Assembly (NCBI GenBank): GCA_035628995.1
Contig: DASPIR010000033.1
Coordinates: 124,001 to 188,000, forward strand
Source of the DNA: Clostridia bacterium
Lineage (GTDB): Bacteria > Bacillota > Clostridia > Lutisporales > Lutisporaceae
DNA: 64,000 bases
Direction of reading: 5' to 3'
This document shows, one piece after another, positions 52,523 to 55,960 of this stretch. The stretch's first letter is position 1; every line of letters starts with the position of its first letter. The notes beneath the pieces are model-generated. The model worked only from the letters and a program-made list of their open reading frames with translations, was not told the DNA's origin and did no database searches. The translations under genes were made by a program, and so were the position numbers.

Positions 52523-52750
52523 TTATGTAGTACTTTTCTCAAGTATTCCAATTACATCCTTAATATCAACATTGTCCGAGTTAATAGCCTGTACTATTTC
52601 ATCAAAACATATCTTAATAATTTCATAATCCTTGTACTCATGGCAAAAAAGCTTTTTCCCGCTTTTATTTGTAACCTTGGCTATATATAGCGCACCTTCC
52701 TGTATAAGGCTGATCATGTGATTCTCTATAACAAATTCTCTAAGCAGCAT
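52523..52750 (-). CDS. Hypothetical protein, 75 aa
   Basis: I recognise no family. The 75 residues form a mixed alpha-beta pattern with LLREFVIENHMISLIQEG at the start and a charged middle (KDYEIIKICFDEIVQAINSD). GGGGGGGA lies just upstream of the ATG at 52750. It precedes tsaD with a weak terminator between, so it may be part of that operon. Confidence 0.45.
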   Translation of the reverse strand: MLLREFVIENHMISLIQEGALYIAKVTNKSGKKLFCHEYKDYEIIKICFDEIVQAINSDNVDIKDVIGILEKSTT

Positions 52751-52881
52751 TCTGTCCCCCCCGTTCATCACTTGTGGAAAGCGTAATATAAAACATTATA
52801 TCACAAGGGTATATTAATTAGAAGCATACATTATTCTTATATATCAGTCTAAATATTATTTCCCTCTTTATTAATATTATT

Positions 52882-52983: not shown

Positions 52984-53856
52984 CTACTCTATGGTCAAGG
53001 TGGTTACATTCAAATCTACGTATATCTTAAGAGTACTCTCTGTCTTTTCATAGTTTTTTGTAACATATTCCTTATCAGAACGGCTTAATACATCACTATT
53101 ATTGATCTTTACTGAGGATATATCATATTTATCTATTACAATTCTTACCCCAACGTTTTCAGGCAGTCTAAGCTTAAGGCTGGAGGCATTGGCATCTATC
53201 CTGACTTCTCCATCCCTTTCATTTTCTCCTGTCAGGTCCAAAGTTATCTTTGATGCATTAGCATCTATATCCAGAGTTTCAAAGCCGCTGTTGCATGCTT
53301 CATATATACTTGCACTACTTGCATCTGCTTTCAGTTTAAACTTTTTCAGCAATTCTTTGTTGGGTTCATCAAAATAAATCTTCGCCATTGACGCATTCAA
53401 TGTAGCATCTACACTTTTAATAAGCATGCTGCCCATATTCAGCTTCAAATCCGAGGCATCAGCTCTAAGCTTCACCTCCAAGGGCAATTTATCCGTAAGC
53501 TTGACATCCCACAGATTTACAGGTTTGCCTAGGCTAAACCCTTCCAGTTCATTTTTAATGCTTATCTCATCATCTTCTACTGTAAACTCCGGTTTTAATG
53601 ATTCCGAGTTATATGAGAATTTCACATCTGCAAGCTTATCATCTGTACTGTCAATTACAGCCTTTGCTACCTTCATATCCAGGTTCAGCTCCATTGACTG
53701 GCCACTTTGATGTTTATCACTCAACTCGACAGCTTCCTTATATTCCTTCAATACTCCCGAAACCATGCTCTGTGCATTATCGAACTCCATTACACAAGCC
53801 GTAAGCGATAGTCCTATCGCTATAGACAGTATTATCAAAAACCCTTTCTTAAACAT
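52984..53856 (-). CDS. Lipoprotein with repeated beta-strand (DUF4097-like) region
   Basis: The 290-residue protein starts with a lipoprotein signal ending in LTAC (about residues 17-20), so Cys21-type lipidation is expected. The rest is a repeated beta pattern in which LKADAS, LNAS, IDANAS and IDANASSLKLRLPE recur, like the toastrack fold of DUF4097 proteins. These often act downstream of envelope-stress sigma factors. The ATG at 53856 lies inside the upstream gene's last codons, overlapping by 8 bp; translational coupling is likely. It is the last gene of the ECF operon. Confidence 0.72.
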   Translation of the reverse strand: MFKKGFLIILSIAIGLSLTACVMEFDNAQSMVSGVLKEYKEAVELSDKHQSGQSMELNLDMKVAKAVIDSTDDKLADVKFSYNSESLKPEFTVEDDEISIKNELEGFSLGKPVNLWDVKLTDKLPLEVKLRADASDLKLNMGSMLIKSVDATLNASMAKIYFDEPNKELLKKFKLKADASSASIYEACNSGFETLDIDANASKITLDLTGENERDGEVRIDANASSLKLRLPENVGVRIVIDKYDISSVKINNSDVLSRSDKEYVTKNYEKTESTLKIYVDLNVTTLTIE

Positions 53857-54760
53857 TTGATGCCTGCTTTCTGACTGCAGGAGCTCCAATTCTGGTGTCA
53901 GCAGCGACACCAATGGCATAAGTCACCAATGCAAGGTATGCCAGCCATCCCAGTATAGGGATTATCTTCAGCACATATACCAGTACAACCCCAACTAATA
54001 GGTGTATATACATCGAATTCCTGCCTTCCAAGTAGCCCGTGACCCGATAGCCAATAGCAACTTCAAGAGCTACCATTCCGGCAAAAGCGATCAGAACGAA
54101 TGCTATGAATATAAATGGTATGAAAATGATTCCTACTAGGGTTATAGCCAAAAGTACTGAAAGCACAACGGCCGCCGGTATAAACAATATCATAATCAAG
54201 AACCCTATCCCAAAATGTCTGCCTATCCTACGCTTGCTTTCCTCTGCCATCAGTCCTACCCTGTCAGGTGCAATGAGCAATGCGAGACAGGAGAATGCAT
54301 ATACAACAAACAGGCCAATCATGTCCCCGTAAGAAATTCTTGGAACCAATCCATCATGCCTTTTTATATCGAAGGGGGCATTTATATCCGCAATTTCTCC
54401 TCTTATATTCGCATTCGGAGACTTATCCACCCCACCGAATACTCCGGCAGCATCCCCATTTATCAGTCCATTGTTTTTTGCGGATACTCTCCCGAATACA
54501 GCTACAGCATCTCCGTCAATGGTTCCGCTAACCGTCACATCCCCAAATATCGCAACCGCATCCCCGGTCAGGCTGCCATTAACAGTTATATCCCCAAATA
54601 TTGCAACTGCATCTCCATTGACAGTAATTCCCCCGGGAACCTCTATGTTATTAAATATCGCTACTTTATCTTTATTGTCTACATCTAATGCAAAGGCACA
54701 AAGCATCAGTACAATCAGCATCATGCCCGCCAGCGCTGCTGCTCCCCTCTTCATTCTCAT
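53849..54760 (-). CDS. Bactofilin-like beta-helix protein with membrane C-terminus
   Basis: The 303-residue protein has a signal or anchor helix (about 8-25), then about 80 residues of repeated short units with the pattern VNGDAVAIFGDITVNG, typical of a polymer-forming beta-helix. The second half has four or more membrane helices (FVVYAFSCLALLIAP, LLAITLVGIIFIPFIFIAF and others). The repeats are visible at the DNA level as near-identical segments. It lies between the anti-sigma gene and the lipoprotein gene, so it is a likely target of the sigma factor. Function unknown. Confidence 0.75.
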   Translation of the reverse strand: MRMKRGAAALAGMMLIVLMLCAFALDVDNKDKVAIFNNIEVPGGITVNGDAVAIFGDITVNGSLTGDAVAIFGDVTVSGTIDGDAVAVFGRVSAKNNGLINGDAAGVFGGVDKSPNANIRGEIADINAPFDIKRHDGLVPRISYGDMIGLFVVYAFSCLALLIAPDRVGLMAEESKRRIGRHFGIGFLIMILFIPAAVVLSVLLAITLVGIIFIPFIFIAFVLIAFAGMVALEVAIGYRVTGYLEGRNSMYIHLLVGVVLVYVLKIIPILGWLAYLALVTYAIGVAADTRIGAPAVRKQASNV

Positions 54761-54772
54761 TCAAATAACCTC

Positions 54773-55330
54773 CTAATTCTCTCGCAAGTTAAGCCTAAAT
54801 ATTAAGATCAAGTTAATTCCCATAAATGCCATTACTATAGTTGTAACAAAAGTCACATAATCTCTAAGCAGAACATTCCTCAAAACCAGAATCTTTCCTA
54901 GAAGTACTGATATCGTAACAAGCACCTCTCTTAAGATGCCAGAAATTATGTTTACTCCGTATATGAGTACATTTTGTGCTGCTATCAGCACTCCACTTTC
55001 TCTTACAAAAGGTATTGTCACGAAAGTCAGCATATTCCAAGCAAAAACTATAAGTCCCAGCACTGAAATCAACCAGAAGGCTACGATTTTAGGGTTTGTG
55101 AAGTACATCCTCTGGGTCTTTATTCCTTCCATTACCCTTGACTCAAATCCAATAGGAACTTCTATTTCAAGAAACTCTTCCAGAGTGCCTATAGCTTCCC
55201 TGAGTACTCTGAATTCCTCTGCACAACCAGAGCATTTGTCGTTATGCTTTATTATCATTTCTCGTTCCAGTTCACTGATATTCCCATCGAAATACTTCAT
55301 GACTAAACTACTTATTTCCTTGCACTGCAA
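54773..55330 (-). CDS. Membrane anti-sigma factor with zinc-binding motif
   Basis: The 185-residue protein has an N-terminal anti-sigma zinc finger: Cys near residue 3 (QCKEISSLV) and HNDKCSGC with the His-x3-Cys-x2-Cys pattern. It is followed by membrane helices (about residues 79-100 and two more toward the C-terminus). It should hold the ECF sigma factor inactive and release it on envelope stress. I start at the TTG at 55330, with AAAGGAGC upstream, giving the family-typical MQCKEI start; the overlap with the sigma gene is 23 bp. Confidence 0.82.
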   Translation of the reverse strand: MQCKEISSLVMKYFDGNISELEREMIIKHNDKCSGCAEEFRVLREAIGTLEEFLEIEVPIGFESRVMEGIKTQRMYFTNPKIVAFWLISVLGLIVFAWNMLTFVTIPFVRESGVLIAAQNVLIYGVNIISGILREVLVTISVLLGKILVLRNVLLRDYVTFVTTIVMAFMGINLILIFRLNLREN

Positions 55331-55883
55331 ACTTCTCACGCTCCTTTTCTCTGCTGAGCAATTCATCCTTAAGCATTTGCCGGGCTCTATATAGCCTATT
55401 CTTTACTATAGTGAGTGATTCACCTGTAATATCCATTATTTCCTGGTAGGATAAATTTCTATGATGGAACAATATCAGAAATTCTCTGTATTTTTCCGGC
55501 AGCTTCATTATTGCATCCTGCACCAGCTTCTGGTTCTCTTTCCTTATATACTCTTCTTCCGGAGTATCTTTCCCATCCTTGATTTCGAACCCATCATCTA
55601 TAGGTATAGTTTCTGCTTTTCTTTTACGCAAGCTATCCAAACAAAGGTTTGTGGTAACCTTCAATGCCCATGTCATAAACTTATATTCAGGATTGTATTT
55701 AGAAAGGGAATTGTACATCCTTATAAATGCCTCCTGAGAGACATCCTCGGCTTCTTCCCTGTTTCCCATCATCCTGAATGCTGTGTTGTAAATAGCCTTC
55801 TTATACCTCTCAATGAGTACCTCAAAAGCATTTAAATCTCCAGCCAGGCACTGGTTCACTATTTCAATGTCAGAGGCATTCAA
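55308..55883 (-). CDS. ECF-type RNA polymerase sigma factor
   Basis: The 191-residue protein has sigma region 2 (DLNAFEVLIERYKKAIYNTAFRMMGNREEAEDVSQEAFIRMYNSLSKY, written here as a single line of evidence only in part) and region 4 (LPEKYREFLILFHHRNLSYQEIMDITG...). Region 4 carries the helix-turn-helix that reads the -35 element. It is the first gene of a four-gene operon with an anti-sigma factor, a bactofilin-like protein and a DUF4097-like lipoprotein. The start TTG at 55883 has AGGTGGGG six bases upstream; a GTG four codons earlier would overlap that site. Confidence 0.88.
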   Translation of the reverse strand: MNASDIEIVNQCLAGDLNAFEVLIERYKKAIYNTAFRMMGNREEAEDVSQEAFIRMYNSLSKYNPEYKFMTWALKVTTNLCLDSLRKRKAETIPIDDGFEIKDGKDTPEEEYIRKENQKLVQDAIMKLPEKYREFLILFHHRNLSYQEIMDITGESLTIVKNRLYRARQMLKDELLSREKEREKFAVQGNK

Positions 55884-55960
55884 ACTTATCCCCACCTCAA
55901 TATACTTCTATTAATATATACGCTCCCAAAATACAATTGTCTGAAAATGTATGAAAATAT

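Follow-up and report, generated by a model that had tools for sequence, protein, structure and literature searches.

What kind of unit is formed by the four closely packed minus-strand genes between positions 55883 and 52984 of a 64,000-nucleotide stretch of Clostridia bacterium DNA (contig DASPIR010000033.1; the whole stretch is called the window here)? They encode an extracytoplasmic function (ECF) sigma factor, a membrane anti-sigma factor, a beta-helix membrane protein and a predicted toastrack lipoprotein. An earlier note on this DNA, made from its letters only, had taken them for a four-gene ECF envelope-stress unit whose genes overlap or nearly touch. The spacing was borne out: the sigma and anti-sigma genes overlap by 23 nt, 12 nt separate the anti-sigma gene from the beta-helix gene, and the lipoprotein gene overlaps the latter by 8 nt. 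From the comparisons below, we consider it likely, at roughly 70%, that the locus is an autoregulated envelope-stress module and that the beta-helix protein is one of its core components, acting more likely as a sensor or modulator than only as an effector.

The family of the source organism (f1, hereafter the Lutispora family) takes in Lutispora thermophila and L. saccharofermentans. The sigma, anti-sigma and beta-helix genes sit between tsaB and tsaD at all ten family loci whose two flanks could be seen (L011, L029 and L032-L039). At E<=1e-5 the beta-helix protein was detected in 34 of 291 sampled genomes of the class, 11 of these in the family. We fetched 19 loci from the 23 non-family genomes (G058, G119, G201 and G221 are outside that count), and 18 of them, all except L207, carry the three genes in the same order. 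We also scanned named genomes with ten family beta-helix proteins as the only seeds, which returned 32 loci, two of them (L150 and L164) truncated where their contigs end; an ECF sigma gene lies close upstream on the same strand in 28 of the 32, and in 17 of the 20 that fall outside the family. These 17 include records of Geosporobacter, Anaerosolibacter, Gemmatimonadetes, Verrucomicrobia, Zixibacteriota, GN15 and Steroidobacter. As far as gene order tells, the stable unit is the trio of sigma factor, anti-sigma factor and beta-helix protein. Genes scattered in relatives and free of shared regulation, the outcome that the earlier note had named as speaking against a unit, were not what we saw: the trio is kept in family and class, and a shared element was found. 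Separately, one record that falls in the Lutispora family is titled 'Calditrichales bacterium MX18-03' (L151), which looks like a wrong taxon label.

One could also suppose that the beta-helix protein and the lipoprotein are functionally unrelated to the sigma factor and became its neighbours by chance of gene order. The lipoprotein gene is indeed missing from the trio in most genera of the family, whereas linkage of the beta-helix gene, kept at 18 of the 19 same-class loci and, outside the family, at 17 of the 20 named ones, argues against chance. For the lipoprotein gene, the 8-nt overlap in the window argues against it too, as do the DUF4097 genes that follow sigma in L163 and L176, and overall we hold this explanation to be very unlikely. 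These two DUF4097 toastracks (1.1e-30 and 5.5e-17, respectively) come from records far from the class, so such units carry toastracks at a distance from the Lutispora family too. Both genes lie between the ECF sigma gene and the beta-helix gene (L163:4230-5285 and L176:4574-5587).

The earlier note had asked for a matching promoter motif upstream of position 55883 and elsewhere in the genome, and TCAGAC-N16-CGTATA was found in both places. Its shorter form, TCAGAC-N16/17-CGTA, lies 5′ of the sigma gene in all 17 scored family loci (L031, with a cut sigma gene, is outside this set). The window's own genome has three strict sites, located 5′ of the sigma gene, of an unlinked gene encoding a membrane protein of the LiaI/LiaF type (PF18917 2.2e-17, PF22570 2.1e-12) and of a radical-SAM gene. 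The LiaI/LiaF-type protein is present in 18 of the 22 family genomes, and TCAGAC-N16-CGTA is found upstream of its gene in all 18 (with N17 in G009); when these upstream regions were shuffled by mononucleotide, none of 60 shuffles reached the observed score for 17 genomes, and a single one of 60 did so for G021. Positions in the boxes average 1.9-2.0 bits, and those in the spacers 0.76 (15 sigma sites) and 0.45 (17 LiaI/LiaF sites), averages that leave out L009, L035 and the G009 site because of position or length. Over the 22 family genomes we counted 35 strict sites, spread over 19 of them; 15 precede sigma, another 15 LiaI/LiaF, and 5 lie elsewhere, against 12 sites for the reversed pattern. 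The five extra sites, near genes for radical SAM (G000, the window's own genome), LemA (G013), UPF0182 (G006) and a small lipoprotein (G009) and one in G008, are not claimed as targets because they are fewer than the control total. The radical-SAM site (L052, G000:C23:667190-667217) is a perfect TCAGAC-N16-CGTATA 30 nt before a radical-SAM/SPASM protein gene; it was not seen in the relatives searched and may be due to chance. Promoters of the form AAC-N14..19-CGT 5′ of the sigma gene were rejected, with three matches in 22 upstream regions (L037, L038 and L018), none conserved.

The sigma protein has sigma-70 regions 2 and 4 (Pfam Sigma70_r2 2.9e-20 and Sigma70_r4_2 1.9e-9, both above cut-off) and no other sigma domains, as is typical of the ECF group. 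SigW is its best equivalog model, but with 152 bits against a cut-off of 209 (NCBIfam NF007223) and 136 against 243 (TIGR02948) it falls outside the SigW equivalog. The anti-sigma protein combines the zinc motif of the zf-HC2 type (Pfam 1.6e-5, 25.3 bits, cut-off 22.2) with a membrane segment, and its zinc residues H41, C45 and C48 are invariant in 15 sequences. The window thus resembles SigW-RsiW of Bacillus subtilis in its membrane zinc-motif anti-sigma factor, its -10 CGTA and its best sigma model. It differs in that its -35 is TCAGAC and not TGAAAC, that its predicted recognition helix has Ile168/Asn171 instead of Thr/Thr, that a beta-helix gene comes after the anti-sigma gene and that the sigma factor stays below the equivalog cut-off. 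The regulon of SigW in B. subtilis also takes in toastrack/PspC genes.

These differences raise the question of how the sigma factor would recognize its -35 box. In passages of PMC6713349 on B. subtilis SigW, T171 is described as contacting base A-34 and T168 its phosphate, and R175 and R172 as contacting G-35. With the window sigma factor aligned on VK-x-R, Ile stands at the place of 168 and Asn at 171. We scored 52 loci after dropping five duplicates. An Asn-type helix is present at 37, and 32 of these have TCAGAC-N15..17-[CT]GTA upstream (27 CGTA, 5 TGTA), versus none of the 15 loci with a non-Asn helix (one of which, L177, is unaligned). Among the five Asn-type exceptions, L159, L160 and L189 carry Lys at 168. 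The SigW box, TGAAAC-N15..18-CGTA, occurs at two of the 52 loci (L163 and L175), neither with an Asn-type helix, and was not found upstream of the window sigma gene. In this alignment, TCAGAC goes with Asn in the recognition helix, an association that is confounded by descent, since the Asn types come mostly from one class. As a separate observation, the sigma factor of G057 (family f37, locus L045) has a GTVKSR helix and its gene is without the TCAGAC element.

Alternatively, TCAGAC-N16-CGTATA may belong to another sigma factor, with the resident ECF sigma reading something else. The element was assigned to the resident sigma by position and conservation. TCAGAC departs from TGAAAC at -35 and -33, and T171 of SigW touches neither of these two bases. 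Nevertheless, both spacing and -10 CGTA resemble those of ECF promoters of the SigW type, the spacers diverge while the boxes hold, and the element tracks the type of recognition helix; we therefore regard a foreign reader as very unlikely.

The putative targets differ between families: LiaI/LiaF in the Lutispora family, and a TM2 protein and UppP in another. In seven genomes of families f25 and f21, TCAGACA-N15-CGTA has 17 sites, versus 5 for the reversed pattern. Six lie before sigma, four before a zinc-ribbon/TM2 protein, one before a nitroreductase, two upstream of BacA/UppP (199 and 332 nt), two upstream (63 and 439 nt) of a 99-amino-acid lipoprotein of no Pfam family, and two inside genes; one protein per kind was scanned with Pfam and the rest were named by likeness. 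UppP is part of the lipid carrier cycle in wall synthesis, and as a putative target it fits envelope stress.

The product of the third gene was searched at the level of both sequence and predicted fold. It matched no Pfam family above cut-off, and the bactofilin family PF04519 was absent even at E<=1. An AlphaFold2 model built from a 21-sequence alignment (mean predicted local distance difference test score, pLDDT, 77; predicted template modelling score 0.52) places a beta-solenoid before a set of helices (Table 1). In a second look with VIA-align, the bactofilins 6RIB (Z 12.3, 91 residues, 2.2 A) and 2N3D (Z 9.8, 92 residues, 2.6 A) ranked first and second, both under the Z of about 13 below which a match between repeats may reflect just a common arrangement; the membrane half was scarcely probed by the fold search. 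Foldseek ranked the same two bactofilins first at non-significant E values (0.086 and 0.18) and returned nothing at E<=0.001 for this model or for that of the toastrack protein, and a profile search of the PDB reached a bactofilin at E 0.28 only. More distant relatives provide a bridge: the homologue in L176 passes the PF04519 cut-off (32.5 vs 27.9 bits), and Geosporobacter (L159) and Anaerosolibacter (L160) each have, adjoining the trio, a second gene that matches both the beta-helix model and PF04519. Because of these links, and though the window protein itself fails Pfam, its solenoid is probably of the bactofilin type. The label 'bactofilin-like' in the earlier note can thus be kept for the predicted fold and by way of the L176 homologue, but not on a Pfam match of the window protein. 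The Pfam-positive bactofilin genes after the trio lie at L159:7003-8151 and L160:6846-7997. In the Steroidobacter and Verrucomicrobia records L166 and L173, the beta-helix proteins end in an RDD membrane domain.

Bactofilins are cytoplasmic proteins that polymerise. The window protein would share with them a beta-helix of about 100 residues, but it has a hydrophobic N-terminus and C-terminal membrane helices. Its hydrophobic segment 3-29, the lack of a further one before residue 144, and the basic loop 171-178 (3 Lys/Arg, 2 acidic) behind the next hydrophobic segment suggest that the beta-helix, unlike that of bactofilins, is extracytoplasmic. Near-identical DNA repeats with variable copy number, expected by the earlier note in this gene, did not appear. 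Tandem Repeats Finder reports none within the gene, three 51-nt units that were compared are 73, 53 and 47% identical, and no copy-number variation is visible in the family, where 16 full-length proteins have 292-304 amino acids (303 in the window).

Several observations weigh against a single module of this kind. The lipoprotein gene is present in 5 of 22 family genomes, in genera g1 and g4 (the contig of G004 ends after the beta-helix gene, and weak matches in G060 and G104 were left aside), which does not support a fixed four-gene unit; of the unit proposed earlier, the linkage of the trio stands, and the toastrack gene is an add-on in two genera. A beta-helix gene is found with no sigma gene nearby in the weak same-class matches L207 and G058, and with no sigma gene in the named loci L165 and L169. 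At the 17 named loci outside the family, the anti-sigma model was reached in only seven (L159, L160, L162, L163, L170, L171 and L175), at a lax E<=0.1, and several genes in the anti-sigma position matched no Pfam family. Between sigma and beta-helix genes, Pfam gave no match in L166 and L174 (E<=1) or L161 (E<=0.1), nothing relevant in L172, and zf-HC2 in L162 (0.069) and L164 (8.5e-9). Beyond the class, the loci thus bear out the link between sigma and beta-helix genes, and the presence of an anti-sigma factor only in part. The promoter counts are a further point: in the window's own genome, three strict sites equal three control sites, the loose pattern TCAGACN{15,17}CGTA has 9 sites versus 28 for its reversed control, and a one-mismatch scan of the strict motif has 10 versus 27. 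As the looser counts are not above control, the case for the element rests on position and conservation and not on numbers of sites. At 12 other LiaI/LiaF loci (L100-L111, outside the family or paralogous), the element occurs in one, L104, as TCAGAC-N17-TGTA about 470 nt upstream; near matches at the nine scored loci reach 11/13 in L105 and L111 and 10/13 in L110, the G008 paralogue. The putative link between LiaI/LiaF and the element holds only within the Lutispora family. Finally, the topology of the beta-helix protein is a prediction.

With these points taken into account, the following sequence of events may be proposed. In unstressed cells the membrane anti-sigma factor would keep the ECF sigma inactive, and membrane damage would free it, as in the families to which the two proteins belong. 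The sigma factor would then read TCAGAC-N16-CGTATA at its own operon and, in the Lutispora family, also the promoter of the unlinked LiaI/LiaF-type gene. The products, namely the beta-helix protein, the LiaI/LiaF part and, in two genera, the toastrack lipoprotein, may work on the outer side of the membrane, either in membrane protection or in tuning of the signal. An ECF unit with a bactofilin-like membrane protein, as first described, is supported by these data, and the envelope-stress role fits them.

The role of the beta-helix protein in this scheme can be read in more than one way. One possibility, close to the envelope-repair scaffold suggested by the earlier note, is that it serves purely as an effector: a scaffold or filament bound to the membrane would reinforce the envelope when needed, without contributing to signalling. 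The predicted bactofilin-like fold would suit this, given that bactofilins polymerise and that 6RIB is a filament structure, and ECF operons can hold effector genes, as sigV-rsiV-oatA of B. subtilis does. On the other hand, the beta-helix gene keeps its sigma neighbour in this class and in more distant bacteria, even as the other putative targets change from one family to the next, a constancy more like that of a signalling partner such as RseB. We consider the effector-only role a serious possibility, though somewhat below even odds. The constancy of the gene is also why we treat its product as a core part, which would be a sensor or modulator of the anti-sigma factor rather than an effector alone. 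In rpoE-rseA-rseB of Escherichia coli, too, a third gene beside sigma and anti-sigma encodes a protein with an extracytoplasmic domain, RseB, which is a signalling partner; the window protein differs from it in its predicted beta-helix fold with membrane helices.

Turning to the lipoprotein, Pfam places it among the toastracks (Toast_rack_N 7.4e-5, 23.4 bits against a cut-off of 22), with LiaF-like_C (2.1e-4, 21.6 bits) under its cut-off of 29. A profile of five members reached 4QRK in the PDB at 1.8e-14, and the lipobox Cys is invariant across the five sequences. The structure model is poor (mean pLDDT 64), and its best VIA rows have Z 8.5 and lower, with the toastrack-type adhesins 4OPW at 7.6 and 4QRK at 6.7. 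Described before as DUF4097-like, the protein is indeed a toastrack, but of the DUF2154/LiaF-C type, with DUF4097 itself unmatched. It is the sole LiaF-C match in its genome at E<=0.001, and a separate DUF4097 protein is encoded at G000:C12. The likeness of the toastrack to LiaF's C-terminal half suggests a 'split LiaF' under the control of the ECF sigma factor: where the lipoprotein gene joined the operon, in two genera, both LiaF halves would come under one ECF-type promoter.

PMC11237479 names 4QRK as a toastrack structure, unifies these domains and notes that a sigma factor is operonically linked in some toastrack contexts; in its main text neither 'bactofilin' nor 'ECF' occurs. The window's genome is like those systems in having both a LiaI-LiaF-type membrane protein and a toastrack near 4QRK. 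It is unlike them in that the two halves are separate genes, both behind an ECF-type promoter, and that PspA (PF04012) had no match in it at E<=0.001 (control genomes matched in 9 of 14). The toastrack here is also a predicted lipoprotein, whereas the text of PMC11237479 argues for an intracellular domain.

Table 1. Positions in the window of the promoter element and of the four genes discussed
Feature	Position	Strand	Remarks
Promoter element TCAGAC-N16-CGTATA, 5′ of sigma gene	55917..55944	-	pattern conserved in family loci
ECF sigma factor, SigW-like, 195 amino acids	55308..55883	-	TTG start after AGGTGG; Pfam matches
Membrane anti-sigma factor, Hx3Cx2C zinc motif	54773..55330	-	TTG start; zf-HC2
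Beta-helix membrane protein, 303 amino acids	53849..54760	-	AlphaFold2 model: strands of the beta-solenoid from residue 24 to 126, helices 144 to 292
Predicted toastrack lipoprotein, 290 amino acids, lipobox LTAC	52984..53856	-	Toast_rack_N; resembles LiaF C-terminal half

The TTG starts of the sigma and anti-sigma genes were picked by ribosome-binding site and by relatives; for sigma, which starts with the TTG at 55883, an in-frame GTG also lies at 55895. Upstream of the sigma gene lies a tsaB-rimI fusion (57097-55961), and downstream of the lipoprotein gene an 82-amino-acid open reading frame precedes tsaD. This frame (52523-52771, minus strand) has no Pfam family above cut-off and is kept at the same place in most family loci, at about 39-61% identity. 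In other families, the trio of two f21 genomes has a polysaccharide deacetylase gene on its downstream side (L041:7696-8505 and L042:5523-6347), and in G057 a gene for a VTT-domain membrane protein overlaps the end of the beta-helix gene (L045:8360-8953).

The earlier note could match the locus to no described system. For its parts this does not hold, since SigW-type ECF regulons and toastrack contexts with a linked sigma factor resemble them; for the module as a whole, no paper on it or on its ECF sigma was found in the open literature library, which was the sole scope of that search. A bolder picture, which we regard as improbable, would see here ECF switches spread across phyla whose sensor, gating the anti-sigma factor, is a membrane-anchored beta-helix outside the cytoplasm, bactofilin-like and perhaps able to polymerise. 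Within it, and equally doubtful, the Clostridia sigma factor would have gained a TCAGAC -35 code together with a changed helix, and relatives of Lutispora would have taken over a split LiaF. At the level of the Lutispora family, the locus would give an ECF sigma factor a promoter code that can be read and a regulon of two targets, and would connect parts of the LiaF type with a promoter of the ECF type. The agreement of promoter box with helix type bears on how ECF sigma factors change their -35 specificity, and a bactofilin-like membrane protein beside the ECF sigma gene in distant phyla may have a sensing role that is testable.

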